From: Hufsiella arboris
GTDB lineage: Bacteria > Bacteroidota > Bacteroidia > Sphingobacteriales > Sphingobacteriaceae
Assembly: GCF_009834875.1 (NCBI RefSeq)
Contig: NZ_WVHT01000002.1
Location: 124,001 to 188,000 of the forward strand
Direction: 5' to 3'
Length of the DNA: 64,000 nucleotides
The notes below the pieces were generated by a model, which did no database searches, was not told the origin of the DNA, and saw nothing but the letters and a program-made list of their open reading frames with translations. Shown one piece after another: positions 3,871 through 38,329 of this stretch; the stretch's first letter is position 1; the number at the start of each line of letters is the position of its first letter. Position numbers and translations under genes: made by a program.

Positions 3871-4560
3871 TTATAAGTCGGCTTTTTCAAGGATGTAAAC
3901 CAGCATATTTTTTCTTAGCCGAAATCCTAATCTTTCATAAAGAGCGATAGCACGGGTATTTGTCGAGAAGGTATGTAAGAAAGGTATGCGTGAATTATCA
4001 ACTATATTCCGGATCTGGCGCTGAATGAGGATTCCCGCGTAGCCTTTACCCAGGTGATCAGGATGGGTACATACCGCGCTGACTTCCGTGTAAGGGTCAG
4101 GCTGCATTCGTTGGCCGGTCATAGCAACTAATTGTGATCCTTCAAAAATACCTTCGTAGTTGCCGAAGTCGATAGTTCGTGAAAAAAACGGGCCTGGATT
4201 GGTGAGCGCCGTTAAATCAAGCATTGCAGGAATATGAACATCCGTTAAAGGAACTACTTCCTTGCTAAATTCAGTTCCAGGCAGTTCTTGCTCGTTAAAT
4301 ACCATTTGTACGAGATCTTTTTTTGCCTTTACCAGCCAGCCTTCGGGGATTTTTATTTCGCCTGGGGTGAACAATACAACCACTCGTTGTGCGGCAACCT
4401 GATCGCGCAAATTAAGCAGGTCGTTTTCACTGTTATCTTTCAGTCCGGCGAAGCCTGCAACGGAGACGTCGAAAAATTTTGCCTGCTCACTTCCATGTGC
4501 GAGGTTTTGGTTTCCGGAAATCAATGCGTTCCATATCGGATTGTCTAATAGATGCTTCAT
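3871..4560 (-). CDS. GNAT family N-acetyltransferase (FR47-like)
   Basis: A 229-residue protein whose second half (about 125-225) is a GNAT fold: EVSAVCTHPDHLGKGYAGIL holds the Q/RxxGxG/A acetyl-CoA pyrophosphate loop (here HLGKGYA), followed by FLHTFSTNTRAIALYERLGF, the usual motif B. The N-terminal half is the diverged GNAT-like domain seen in FR47-type proteins. It transfers an acetyl group from acetyl-CoA to an unidentified amine. It lies 17 bases downstream of the permease gene on the same strand and may be cotranscribed with it. Confidence 0.8.
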   Translation of the reverse strand: MKHLLDNPIWNALISGNQNLAHGSEQAKFFDVSVAGFAGLKDNSENDLLNLRDQVAAQRVVVLFTPGEIKIPEGWLVKAKKDLVQMVFNEQELPGTEFSKEVVPLTDVHIPAMLDLTALTNPGPFFSRTIDFGNYEGIFEGSQLVAMTGQRMQPDPYTEVSAVCTHPDHLGKGYAGILIQRQIRNIVDNSRIPFLHTFSTNTRAIALYERLGFRLRKNMLVYILEKADL

Positions 4561-4577
4561 AGTATGCCATTTTTGCT

Positions 4578-5945
4578 TCAGGCCGTTTGCTTTAGATCGT
4601 TATTTGTTTCCGGGCGTTTAAACGGCCAGTCGCTGTTAATTTTTGCTTTTATAAAATAGACAGTCAGCCCGATCGCTGTTACCGTTAATCCGGAAAGCAT
4701 AAGTGTAAAGCCTGTTGAGATTAAAATGCAAATCCATAGAATGATTGCTATGTAAACGAAGATAGGGAACAAGGGCATTTTGTACGGAAACATATTCGCC
4801 GATCGTTTCTTTCTCAACAAAATCAACCCTATAGCCTGACCAATAAATTGCACTAAAATGCGCATGGCGAGAATTGCACTAATAACATCGCCCAATCGAA
4901 AAAGCAGACTGAATACGAAAGCCACACCACCCAATACCAATAAGGAAACATGCGGAAAATTTTTGGTAGGGTGCACCTTTGCAAACATTTTGAAAAAAGC
5001 GCCATCCTTAGCGGCGGCATAGGGGATACGGCTATACCCTAATGTTGCTGAAAATACTGAAGCGAAGGCCACCCACAAAATCAGGCAGGTAATAACAATG
5101 GCTGCCTTTTCTCCCGCGAGCTCTTTCATAAATAAGCTTACTACAAACTGGCTATTCTTCGCGTGCTCCCAGGGAATGACACTTACGATGCTGACGTTCA
5201 TCATGAGATACAGTAAGGCTATTCCAGCAATGGATAAAAACATGCTTTTGGGAATATTTATAGAAGGATTTTTGATTTCGCCGCCTAAGTGACACACATT
5301 ATAATAACCCAGATAGCTGTATACCGATTTGACGCTGGCGAAACCCAGAGCAGTAACAAACGCATAATTGAGCTGCAATCCGTCATTGATATGTTCTATC
5401 GGTTTTGAAAAATTGCCATGAGCGAGTCCCGAACCAATTATGATCGCCATTGTAAGCAATACGCCGGCCCAGAGAAAGACGCTTATTTTGCCGATAGCCT
5501 CAGTTTTCCGGTAAAGTAGAACGACAATCAGAACTACGACAGCGCCGCTTACGGCTTTTGATTCAATGGTTGTCAGTGGAACCAGGTACGAGAAATAAGC
5601 TGCAAATCCGATGGCGGCTGAAGCGATAACCAGGGGAGCCTGGATCATCGTTTGCCATACAAACAGAAAACTCATCATTTTGCCCGCACCTTTTTCGCCG
5701 TAAGCTGCTTTCAGAAAGTTATAACTTCCGCCGGCTTCGGGAAAAGCGGCACCAAGCTCACTCCAGATCATTGCATCAACAAATGACAGAATTGCTCCGG
5801 CTACCCAGGCATATAAAAAGTAGGGGCCGTTCATCATTCCAATCACCATCGGTAACGTAATAAATGGCCCGATTCCAACCATATCGGTCATGTTGATCGC
5901 GGTAGCCTGTAGTAAACCTAAGCGCCGTTGTAAATGTTGATACAT
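4578..5945 (-). CDS. APC-family amino acid permease
   Basis: A 455-residue inner-membrane transporter with about 12 hydrophobic segments. The N-terminal helix TDMVGIGPFITLPMVIG carries the GIG motif that binds the amino acid backbone in APC-superfamily members, and SELGAAFPEAGGSYNFLKAAYG is the family's conserved helix 2-3 region. ATG at 5945 gives the start MYQHLQRRLGLL; an in-frame TTG at 5984 would add 13 residues but is less likely. Substrate specificity is not evident. The 3' neighbour is a GNAT gene 17 bases on. Confidence 0.88.
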   Translation of the reverse strand: MYQHLQRRLGLLQATAINMTDMVGIGPFITLPMVIGMMNGPYFLYAWVAGAILSFVDAMIWSELGAAFPEAGGSYNFLKAAYGEKGAGKMMSFLFVWQTMIQAPLVIASAAIGFAAYFSYLVPLTTIESKAVSGAVVVLIVVLLYRKTEAIGKISVFLWAGVLLTMAIIIGSGLAHGNFSKPIEHINDGLQLNYAFVTALGFASVKSVYSYLGYYNVCHLGGEIKNPSINIPKSMFLSIAGIALLYLMMNVSIVSVIPWEHAKNSQFVVSLFMKELAGEKAAIVITCLILWVAFASVFSATLGYSRIPYAAAKDGAFFKMFAKVHPTKNFPHVSLLVLGGVAFVFSLLFRLGDVISAILAMRILVQFIGQAIGLILLRKKRSANMFPYKMPLFPIFVYIAIILWICILISTGFTLMLSGLTVTAIGLTVYFIKAKINSDWPFKRPETNNDLKQTA

Positions 5946-6126
5946 GAACTTTAAATCTTTGGGAAAGATAAGCGATTGCTGCAAAGTATCCTGTCATTAA
6001 AGTATCAAGCTTGTCTTAAGATTTCAAAGGTTAAATCGGTTTACTGGCGCCTTATTGGTAATTTCGTGCTTAATGCGATGCTCGCCGTGGCCTGTATCAT
6101 CATACAATCAAGCAGGATTAACCCTT

Positions 6127-6732
6127 ATGAACCAGTTAACTTTTTTTGAAAATAAAGCTTTGTCGATCCCCGACGAACTTGCATCTTATCATAATGCGTT
6201 CTTCAGCACCGCGGAAAGTATGGGTTACTTAGACAGACTTACAACGGTCACTCCCTGGAATCAGGAGACTATTCATATGTATGGCAAAATGTTAAAGACG
6301 CCCAGGTTAACAGCCTGGTACGGAGATGAGGAAAGTATTTACCAATTTTCAGGTAACAAATATCACCCTTTAAAATGGACTCCGGATTTATTGTCACTTA
6401 AAGAAAAAGTAGAACAAAAGGCCGGTGAAAAATTCAACAGTGTGTTGTTGAACTTTTATCGCGATGGCAACGATTCCGTTTCCTGGCATAGTGATGATGA
6501 ACCCGAGCTGGGTACGAATCCGGTAATTGCTTCAGTAAGTTTTGGTCAGCCAAGGCGATTTGATATCCGCAATAAGAGTGATCATCAACACAAGTTTTCA
6601 ATTGAGCTGGAAAATGGCTCGTTGCTGGTAATGAAGGGGGATATGCAGAAAAACTGGGAACACCGTGTGCCAAAATCAATCAGGCCTATGAAGCATCGGA
6701 TTAACTTGACTTTCAGAATGATAAATACTTAG
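6127..6732 (+). CDS. alkB: AlkB-type 2-oxoglutarate/Fe(II)-dependent DNA dealkylase
   Basis: A 201-residue protein that should repair alkylated bases (1-methyladenine, 3-methylcytosine) by oxidative demethylation. The iron triad is visible: H121-x-D123 in VSWHSDDEPELG and H179 in NWEHRVPK, followed by RINLTFR with the 2-oxoglutarate-binding arginines. NSVLLNFYRDGNDSVSWHSD is the classic ALKBH2/3-like core. I chose ATG 6127; a longer reading from 6055 would add 24 residues unlike the family. It has no alkylation-repair neighbours and is convergent with the next gene, only four bases away. Confidence 0.92.
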   Translation: MNQLTFFENKALSIPDELASYHNAFFSTAESMGYLDRLTTVTPWNQETIHMYGKMLKTPRLTAWYGDEESIYQFSGNKYHPLKWTPDLLSLKEKVEQKAGEKFNSVLLNFYRDGNDSVSWHSDDEPELGTNPVIASVSFGQPRRFDIRNKSDHQHKFSIELENGSLLVMKGDMQKNWEHRVPKSIRPMKHRINLTFRMINT

Positions 6733-36441: not shown

Positions 36442-36677
36442 AGGTTATAGGATTCAAGTTTATGGATGATGAGATGTAATGTCTCATAGTCAATGCCCCC
36501 CGGATTTTTACAAACGTGGAGGTATTCGTTTTTGTCAGGTTCAAGACTTGCAATCAGTTTGCCGTTTTGGAATATCTCAAATTTGCAGTGCGTGTCAGAG
36601 TGATGCAAATATTCTGCTACCTCAAAATTCTCCGTACGGCTGTCCTGATGAGTGATACTTAAATGAAATCGGTCCAT
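36438..36677 (-). CDS. Small protein of unknown function
   Basis: A 79-residue soluble protein, not recognised (start MDRFHLSITHQDSRTENFEV). It is rich in histidine and acidic residues, with alternating beta-like segments (CKFEIFQNGKLIASLEPD) and a C-terminal helix. Its stop overlaps the stop of the convergent epimerase gene by a few bases. Compact size and clean frame suggest a real gene. Confidence 0.6.
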   Translation of the reverse strand: MDRFHLSITHQDSRTENFEVAEYLHHSDTHCKFEIFQNGKLIASLEPDKNEYLHVCKNPGGIDYETLHLIIHKLESYNL

Positions 36678-36740
36678 AAACTTCTTTAGCTTTTAAAACA
36701 ACCATGCATGCTACGCATTTGTTGACATTGACGAAAATAT

Positions 36741-36813
36741 TTAACATTGCCAGTTTCTTAAAAATCTCTTAACAACGATTTATTATCAGCTTAACATTGC
36801 CATTATAGTTTCG
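36741..36813 (+). promoter_or_regulatory. 11-bp-phased TTAACA array and -7 element before the phosphoesterase gene
   Basis: Hexamers starting at 36747 (TTGCCA), 36758 (TTAAAA), 36769 (TTAACA), 36780 (TTATTA) and 36791 (TTAACA) are exactly 11 bases apart; three carry a leading C. A further TTAACA starts at 36741, and the 12-mer TTAACATTGCCA occurs at 36741 and 36791. TAGTTTCG at 36806-36813 is one base off the -7 consensus. Direct repeats with an 11-bp period are how PhoB/PhoP-type (OmpR-family) regulators bind. A phosphate-responsive operator is therefore inferred. Confidence 0.5.
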
Positions 36814-36844
36814 CCTCCATAGACGATACACTGAATTTTATAGC

Positions 36845-38329
36845 ATGTTAAGAAGACATTTTTTAAGAAACCTTGGTTTGTTAAGCGCGGCGACAACAAT
36901 TCCCGCGACAGTAATTAAAGCCGCTGAGCCACAATTTGTTTACGGCTTAGGACAACTTTTAATAAAAGGCCGCGTGGCGAGCGGAGCCAAAGGTATTTCC
37001 GGAGTAGCCGTTACTGATGGCGTCAACGTAGTTTTGACGAATAGCAATGGCAGTTATGAGTTAACCAGCAATAAAAGCTGTCGTTTTGTTTACATCTCGC
37101 TGCCATCGGGATATGAGTTTCCTCATGAGAACAGTGTCGCGAAGTTTTATCAAAAAATCGATCCGTCAAAAAGTACATTCATCGCAAATTTTAATTTAAC
37201 AGAATTATCTCAATCCGACGAGAAGCATACATTCGTGGTTTGGGCCGATCCGCAAATCCAGTCAAAACACGATGCCGAGCTGCTGCTGGCCAATTCGGCT
37301 CCCGATTTAAAGGCCCTGGTTGAAAATTACCGCGGGCAGCTTCTTCATGGTATAGGATGCGGAGATCTGGTGTGGGACAATTTTAATTTGTTTCCCGACT
37401 ATCAAAAAGCGATTGCAATGAGCGGCCTGCCATTTTTCAACGTAATTGGTAATCATGATATGGACCTTGAGGCGCGGACGGATGAGGGATCATCTGATAC
37501 ATTCAAAGATCATTTTGGGCCAACATATTACTCGTATAATCGCGGTAAAATACATTATGTCGTATTGGATGATGTGTTCTTTTTAGGAGTGGCGAAAAAG
37601 TATATCGGATATCTTACAGAGAGCCAGTTACAGTGGCTTGAGCAGGATTTGAAAAATGTTAAGGAGGGCTCCACAGTCGTTGTAAGTTTGCACATACCAA
37701 CGAACACAGGTCAGCTGCGCAGGGATAAAGAGAAGGTTGATCAAATGGGCGGCACTGTGATCAACCGTCAGCATCTTTATAATCTTTTAAAACCGTATCG
37801 TGTACACTTAATGTCGGGGCACACCCATTTTAATGAAAAGTGGGAAGATGGTAATATAACCGAGCACGTTCACGGAACCGTTTGCGGCGCCTGGTGGACC
37901 GGACAAATTTGTGGCGACGGAACGCCTAACGGTTATGGTGTTTACGAGGTTAGCGGGAACGACGTTAAATGGTATTACAAAGCGACCGGCCATCCAAAAA
38001 ATTATCAGTTGAAAATTTATAGTCCCGGGAAGCACAAGGAATATCCGGACGAAGCATGTATTAACGTATGGAATTATGATAAGAACTGGAAGATAGAATG
38101 CTTTGCAGACGGAAATTCTATAGGTGCGCCGATCCAAAAAACTGCTTATGATCCATTGGCTGCTGAAACATTATTAGGAGCGGATATACCCAAACCTCGC
38201 GGCTGGGTTGAACCACTTTTAACCGACCACTTGTTTTTTATCAAGGTTCCGGCCGGCACAAAATCATTGAAGGTTAATGCAACCGATCGTTTTGGCGAGA
38301 CATTTACCGATACGCTCGGACTGGCATAA
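36845..38329 (+). CDS. Tat-exported calcineurin-like metallophosphoesterase
   Basis: A 494-residue protein with a Tat-like signal (MLRRHFLRNLGLLSAATTIP). After an Ig-like N-terminal domain (about 35-125; KGISGVAVTDGVNVVLTN), the metallophosphoesterase core shows VWADPQIQ (D-x-x, where most members have DxH), GCGDLVWD, NVIGNHDMD (GNHD) , SLHIPTN and MSGHTHF (GHxH) in order. A C-terminal domain of about 130 residues follows, as in the MetallophosN/C family. It should release phosphate from periplasmic or extracellular phosphoesters. The phased repeat array upstream suggests phosphate control. Confidence 0.88.
   Translation: MLRRHFLRNLGLLSAATTIPATVIKAAEPQFVYGLGQLLIKGRVASGAKGISGVAVTDGVNVVLTNSNGSYELTSNKSCRFVYISLPSGYEFPHENSVAKFYQKIDPSKSTFIANFNLTELSQSDEKHTFVVWADPQIQSKHDAELLLANSAPDLKALVENYRGQLLHGIGCGDLVWDNFNLFPDYQKAIAMSGLPFFNVIGNHDMDLEARTDEGSSDTFKDHFGPTYYSYNRGKIHYVVLDDVFFLGVAKKYIGYLTESQLQWLEQDLKNVKEGSTVVVSLHIPTNTGQLRRDKEKVDQMGGTVINRQHLYNLLKPYRVHLMSGHTHFNEKWEDGNITEHVHGTVCGAWWTGQICGDGTPNGYGVYEVSGNDVKWYYKATGHPKNYQLKIYSPGKHKEYPDEACINVWNYDKNWKIECFADGNSIGAPIQKTAYDPLAAETLLGADIPKPRGWVEPLLTDHLFFIKVPAGTKSLKVNATDRFGETFTDTLGLA

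Follow-up and report, generated by a model that had tools for sequence, protein, structure and literature searches.

The question raised by this locus is whether the short repeats in front of a phosphoesterase gene of Hufsiella arboris (Sphingobacteriaceae) form a Pho box and, if they do, how far it extends. The window, meaning the whole stretch of 64,000 nt that was analysed, holds a metallophosphoesterase gene at 36845–38329 (forward strand) with the Pfam domain order MetallophosN–Metallophos–MetallophosC. PF16371 (84.6 bits), PF00149 (30.1 bits), and PF16370 (159.2 bits) each score above cut-off, which bears out the phosphoesterase named in a preliminary description of this DNA. The MetallophosN family is present in a single copy in the genome, and relatives of the protein include those of Taibaiella koreensis (54%) and an Ignavibacteriae MAG (43%). 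Its N-terminus, RRHFLRN, is twin-arginine-like by eye, and export is predicted. A 167-bp intergenic region (36678–36844, 32% GC) separates the gene from a short divergent ORF (36444–36677, reverse strand) without a Pfam match. Within this region, at 36741–36813, the preliminary description placed a five-step array with the architecture of PhoB/PhoP boxes, read as a phosphate-starvation promoter.

TT-starting hexamers begin at 36747 (TTGCCA), 36758 (TTAAAA), 36769 (TTAACA), 36780 (TTATTA), and 36791 (TTAACA), all on the forward strand and spaced by exactly 11 bp, and a −7-like element comes after them; all of this, including the two TTAACA copies, is in the sequence as first described. Among 5000 dinucleotide shuffles of the intergenic region, five TT in 11-bp register on either strand were found in 1.0%, and in 2.7% when spacings of 10–12 bp were allowed, so the TT register alone is weak evidence and was rejected as an argument in its own right. 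The same register including two TTAACA (forward strand) was reached in 0 of 5000 shuffles, and three or more TTAACA in 0.04%. The original statement that a five-step register is unlikely by chance thus stands for the array with its two TTAACA copies and falls for TT alone. The third TTAACA in the region, at 36741, lies outside the 11-bp register. It begins an out-of-register copy, TTAACATTGCCA (36741–36752, forward strand), that is identical to 36791–36802, the two forming an exact 12-bp direct repeat 50 bp apart; TTGACATTG at 36722 is a third near-copy, and the outer copies are off the 11-bp register.

Scans for comparable arrays used the consensus TTHAYA, the form of the Bacillus subtilis PhoP box, in which TT(A/T/C)A(C/T)A hexamers are separated by spacers of about 5 bp; that box belongs to another phylum and another core promoter than the window box. 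The H. arboris sample came to 464 kb, made up of the window and 20 other stretches, two of them picked for holding the pit and PhoB-like genes. In this sample four steps scoring 22/24 at 11 bp occur in the window only, at two overlapping starts. At a 14-bp period there are also two matches at 22/24, one of them starting at 36741, inside the window promoter. Together with the shuffle counts, this leaves the evidence within the window sequence suggestive but short of decisive.

No PstB above the family cut-off was found by searching the H. arboris genome (best 185 vs. 343.2 bits), so pit rather than pst served as the reference gene. The genome has one PHO4/Pit permease, and a search for the PF00245 alkaline phosphatase family found it absent. 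PHO4 is present in 56 of 61 family genomes, and in 29 of the 30 pit loci examined there is a DUF47 gene upstream. At these promoters 11 bp is the sole outstanding period: 22 of 29 loci score at least 16/18, vs. 0 or 1 of 29 at periods of 7–10 and 12–15 bp. The usual form is TTAACA-TTAAC-TTAACA-TTG-N6-TAnnTTTG. In 22 of 30 loci the two repeats are perfect TTAACA copies, and in 26 of 30 the −7 element (one mismatch at most) begins exactly 15 bp downstream of the second repeat's start. This form agrees with the earlier suggestion of a candidate Pho box for the lineage.

From its second repeat on, the window site is TTATTA-TCAGC-TTAACA-TTG-CCATTA-TAGTTTCG, spaced as in the common pit form. The actual unit, as far as can be read from these comparisons, therefore appears to comprise the final three repeats and, after them, the −7 element: TTAACA-N5-TTATTA-N5-TTAACATTG-N6-TAGTTTCG, at 36769–36813 on the forward strand. 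Repeat 1 (TTAACA, 36769–36774) aligns with the first repeat of the SusC-operon promoters described below; repeat 2 (TTATTA, 36780–36785) is degenerate; repeat 3 with its tail (TTAACATTG, 36791–36799) ends in TTG, the most frequent form in pit promoters; and the putative −7 element TAGTTTCG (36806–36813), with one mismatch to TAnnTTTG, begins exactly 15 bp downstream of where the last repeat starts. The proposed PhoB/PhoP-box architecture is thus matched by the conserved box at 36769, 36780, and 36791. It finds no counterpart in pit or SusC promoters at 36747 and 36758, and the idea that all five steps are functional was rejected. These two hexamers are probably incidental: TTAAAA (36758–36763, forward strand) might be a fourth, outer repeat or may be incidental, and TTGCCA (36747–36752), the fifth step of the preliminary description, has two mismatches to the repeat consensus and is probably there by chance.

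The strongest single result comes from a matrix trained on 23 pit promoters from other genera. Left out of it were the H. arboris locus (L089), a locus from the same genus (L186), three failures (L183, L202, and L210), one shifted case (L185), and one near-duplicate (L199). Among 926,614 H. arboris positions (464 kb) the genome's own pit promoter ranks first at 45.8 bits and the window site second at 19.7, with the next at 8.6. The order is unchanged when the own genus is included, and with only the part of the matrix from the second repeat to the −7 element the window site is again second, at 20.2 bits vs. 15.0 for the next. In 20,000 shuffles of the region, the score observed for the site is never attained. 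Any TTAACA-type matrix score is raised here because the site was first picked for its TTAACA repeats; neither the TTG tail nor the precise distance to the −7 element played a part in that choice. Another match to the matrix, at 15.7 bits, lies near position 1522 of stretch L017 on the reverse strand (C1:45004 region of the same genome). These rankings bear on one alternative, that an AT-rich intergenic region produced the array by chance. Chance would suit the 32% GC content, the 1% of shuffles with five TT in register, and the 14-bp register of similar score that runs through the same region. It is extremely improbable given second place among 926,614 positions for a matrix drawn independently from other genera, a score that no shuffle reached, and an exact −7 spacing that recurs in operon promoters of orthologues of the downstream gene.

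Those orthologues were sought in 399 family genomes, a sample of 25 genera of which two are heavily represented. The phosphoesterase has matches in 128 of them at E ≤ 1e-130, and loci were examined for the best 29 of the 128, the window excluded. Directly upstream of 17 orthologues outside the genus g14 considered below (15 loci plus L049 and L050) there is no array above 19/24. Several orthologues lie inside operons, so the DNA directly upstream is insufficient, and the operon promoters were read instead by extending the upstream reading by about 6–7.6 kb for 12 orthologues. Six of the 12 (L212–L217) have the order SusC–SusD–phosphoesterase, SusC being identified by position and length, and five of these six operons have three 11-bp repeats plus a −7 element at the window spacing, 50–115 bp before the called SusC start. 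TAGTTTCG is identical in three of the five; the box of L213 is weak among them (20/24), and the sixth operon (L215) has a degenerate version only (18/24), also with TAGTTTCG. The other six loci (L218–L223), with other gene contexts, gave no strong box match. By the 24-point score the window site has 23 and the next site in its own genome 21, a ranking that is descriptive since the score was devised after the SusC promoters had been seen. In the loci L060, L061, and L063 the phosphoesterase gene comes after SusD and before a GDPD gene (Pfam checked in L060 only).

A locus of related composition is described for Flavobacterium johnsoniae, where a Pi-induced SusCD locus (PUSI) includes a PF00149 phosphoesterase (PMC8115612). 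As far as the account of the Pus loci goes, the likeness is to the relatives of the window gene that sit in SusC–SusD–phosphoesterase operons, some with GDPD; the window gene differs in standing alone behind its own box, with SusC and SusD absent beside it. The term "pho box" is absent from the main text of that paper. Elsewhere in the H. arboris genome, L143:5180-13086 (C5) encodes a TonB receptor, a 480-aa lipoprotein, and an Oar-like receptor, with a box-like site before each (5149, 8010, and 9770). These genes resemble the Pi-induced receptor and lipoprotein pairs presented for F. johnsoniae (PMC8115612). The lipoprotein, a possible counterpart of the FI/FII lipoproteins of F. johnsoniae, has no Pfam, NCBIfam, or PDB match, and its single-sequence fold was uninformative (mean pLDDT 32.9).

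Arrays were also looked for at 12 loci of the H. arboris genome, comprising eight regulators, Pit, and three Porin_O_P matches. The best PhoB match (L051) has TTAACA-N5-TTAATA-N5-TTAATA, 18/18 vs. TTHAYA, 74 bp before the regulator start, and the DUF47-Pit operon has TTAACA-N5-TTAACA-N5-TTAGTA (17/18). A 17/18 match in regulator locus L054 lies behind a kinase gene rather than before the regulator, and the three Porin_O_P loci have no array (best 15/18). The expectation that TTAACA-type 11-bp repeats would accompany phosphate genes is accordingly upheld for the PhoB-like and DUF47-Pit genes of H. arboris, for most pit loci of the family (22 of 29, or 26 of 30 judged with the −7 element), and for five of the six SusC–SusD–phosphoesterase operons, one of them weak; it is not upheld for the three Porin_O_P genes.

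The identity of the regulator can be narrowed to some extent. The genome has eight near-full-length PhoB-like regulators, none of them above the PhoB cut-off (best 226.6 vs. 296.2 bits), a cut-off passed by only two of 14 control genomes. Just one of the eight, the best PhoB match, has an array before its own gene. It is encoded at C12:539546 and has receiver and Trans_reg_C domains; among NCBIfam models it is matched best by PhoB (227.2 of 296.2) and by Bacteroides PhoB (217 of 270), both below cut-off. No kinase gene lies beside it in the 3.7-kb locus. The kinase encoded upstream of DUF47-Pit in H. arboris has PnpS and PhoR as its best models (255.5 of 400 and 232.4 of 334.2, below cut-off), and a kinase gene is directly upstream of DUF47-Pit in 24 of the 30 pit loci (L183–L211 plus H. 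arboris, L092:8594-9640 on C1), 21 of them counted by pattern and L189, L200, and L203 by eye. We infer that the PhoB-like regulator and this kinase are partners, and the arrangement suggests a tie between Pi sensing and Pit in this genome, in which PstB is not recognisable.

Throughout the 464-kb sample, 11-bp TTHAYA triples of at least 17/18 occur at five sites: the window, pit, and PhoB-like promoters and two places without an evident phosphate link. Periods of 8–10 and 12–15 bp give 0–3 such triples each. Exact TTAAYA pairs occur four times at 11 bp, four times at 22 bp, and 0–3 times at every other spacing from 7 to 30 bp, and five of these eight pairs fall in the three phosphate-linked promoters. 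As an off-period control, the pattern with 10-bp spacing and up to two mismatches gave 255 matches vs. 214 for the reversed control. These counts bear on a second alternative, in which the lineage uses the repeats as a general part of its core promoters, a TTAACA-type upstream element of many genes with no specific tie to phosphate. TTAACA is moderately enriched upstream of genes (30 and 31 vs. 18 expected in the two strand orientations), and pit promoters hold their repeats rigidly to the −7 element. A generic element is nevertheless very unlikely: three of the five triples precede the phosphoesterase, pit, and PhoB-like genes (in a sample with two stretches chosen for the latter two), the 464 kb hold just two strong matches to the pit matrix, and 225 upstream regions contain 55 exact TAnnTTTG sites, of which a single one has a TTAACA starting 8–39 bp before it, a count that missed the genome's own pit because its crudely called start falls inside the box.

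A different set of arrays accompanies the loci of g14, one large genus, where an ECF sigma gene is followed by the phosphoesterase gene and then by fecR (Pfam support for sigma and FecR in L067) and a further ORF behind fecR, a fragment without a Pfam match, looks like the start of a TonB receptor. Triple arrays precede fecR in 14 of 14 of these loci and the phosphoesterase gene in 12 of 14, counts that cover L064, L066–L077, and L079, the higher-scoring g14 matches of the 399-genome search. Their form is TTAAYA-N5-TTHAYA-N5-TTAAY, followed mostly by TTTTGG or TTTCAG, not TAnnTTTG. They may represent a Pho box feeding an ECF-type promoter. A recurrent CTCTT plus TAAA stretch is seen some 20–30 bp further on.

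A sequence-only model (R1) was built from 23 of 27 g14 arrays, the weak upstream arrays of L072, L074, L075, and L079 being left out, and searched in eight genomes, with 150 of 4160–6179 first-look candidates scored per genome. It recovers the PhoB-like promoter in at least six of the eight (L126 in H. arboris; L129, L131, L139, L141, and L159) and the DUF47-Pit promoter in at least four (L144 in H. arboris; L153, L155, and L165). Among the candidates scored, the model also matches at a second DUF47 gene, at TonB receptors, and at many places that look unrelated. Taken one by one, the E-values are weak (0.15 for the H. arboris PhoB-like promoter), and many of the 87 matches look like chance; surroundings were scanned for 69 places, one scan reporting only those of at least 15/18. 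The window site itself scores poorly (8.1 bits, E 3.6, partial), so its box would be of the pit/SusC type and not of the g14 type.

PHO boxes as reviewed are 11-nt direct repeats with a consensus that differs by species (PMC4415409). The repeat unit is TTAACA here, vs. CTGTCAT in E. coli and GTTCACC in Streptomyces coelicolor in that review; given such variation, the lack of the E. coli CTGTCAT is not decisive for the kind of element (PMC4415409). The traits of a PHO box can be followed in H. arboris: direct repeats with an 11-bp period, the middle of the three degenerate; a position near the core promoter, on its upstream side, with fixed spacing, 15 bp to the −7 element; and a like element before phosphate-uptake genes and phoB in one genome (pit 17/18, PhoB-like 18/18). 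Unlike the PHO box as presented in the review, the window box keeps a fixed spacing to a −7 element of the Bacteroidota type, TAnnTTTG (PMC4415409). Among the matches listed from the open-licence literature, titles and abstract openings gave no Pho-box consensus for Sphingobacteriaceae.

Closer in phylogeny, PhoP of Riemerella anatipestifer, another Bacteroidota PhoP, has TTTAACA as its most conserved nucleotides by DAP-seq and binds upstream of its own operon; PhoPR is upregulated under phosphate starvation, according to the introduction of the same paper (PMC9603813). The text of that study, a virulence paper, gives no 11-bp register or −7 spacing, and its 583 peaks mean that the motif is not specific to phosphate genes (PMC9603813). 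A third alternative is that the repeats are bound by another OmpR-family regulator, one that recognises TTAACA and responds, for example, to the envelope or redox state, with phosphate genes as only part of its regulon. It would accommodate the eight near-full-length PhoB-like regulators, the several array matches before Oar-like TonB receptors and other genes, and the resemblance of the widely bound R. anatipestifer motif to that of ArcA (PMC9603813). We consider it unlikely, as only the best PhoB match among the eight regulators has an array before its own gene, and PhoB suits the arrays before pit, the second DUF47 gene, and phosphoesterase operons. A phosphate/sulphate permease gene of Bacteroides fragilis is listed as PhoB-dependent, with a change of −52.2 in a phoB mutant at low phosphate, and this gene (pit, group 3) is reported as unchanged by phosphate in the wild type (PMC3547664).

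The reading we prefer, and hold to be very probable, is that 36769–36813 is a phosphate-starvation promoter whose Pho box depends on PhoB and serves the gene of an exported phosphoesterase. What is seen directly is the repeats, the conservation of their geometry, and their occurrence with phosphate genes. The box geometry common to pit promoters, along with this association, supports the reading originally proposed, and so do the TTTAACA motif of R. anatipestifer PhoP (PMC9603813), the PhoB-dependent permease gene listed for B. fragilis (PMC3547664), and the phosphoesterase of the Pi-induced SusCD locus of F. johnsoniae (PMC8115612). The binding protein, the phosphate response, export, and the substrate are more conjectural. 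At low phosphate, a PhoR-type kinase would phosphorylate a PhoB-type response regulator, which would bind head-to-tail to the three 11-bp repeats (TTAACA, TTATTA, and TTAACATTG) in the place of a −33 element and recruit RNA polymerase to the −7 element TAGTTTCG. The exported phosphoesterase would then be switched on and would free phosphate from organic esters, possibly glycerophosphodiesters, because some relatives encode the phosphoesterase between SusD and GDPD. Several observations count against this reading: the middle repeat is degenerate; R1 scores the window site poorly, no array above 19/24 lies directly upstream of the 17 non-g14 orthologues, and no regulator is above the PhoB cut-off; many R1 matches precede genes without an evident phosphate link; the R. 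anatipestifer PhoP motif is not confined to phosphate genes (PMC9603813); and the B. fragilis pit was, as reported, unmoved by phosphate in the wild type (PMC3547664).

A broader picture can be offered tentatively, with somewhat less than an even chance of being right. The Pho response of the family may operate without Pst, through a PhoR-like kinase linked to DUF47 (PhoU-like)-Pit, and the box may be a portable module, moving with phosphoesterase genes among SusCD operons, loci with ECF sigma and FecR, and genes that stand alone. If this is true, the link of the kinase to a DUF47-Pit operon with a TTAACA-box promoter would mean that phosphate status is read via Pit/DUF47 and not via PstSCAB/PhoU. 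The PhoR–DUF47–Pit linkage becomes testable in a genome without a recognisable PstB. The box would tie a family of exported phosphoesterases to phosphate scavenging, and with the conserved repeats and their fixed −7 spacing, the phosphate regulon becomes readable from sequence in the little-studied Sphingobacteriaceae and perhaps in the Bacteroidota more widely.
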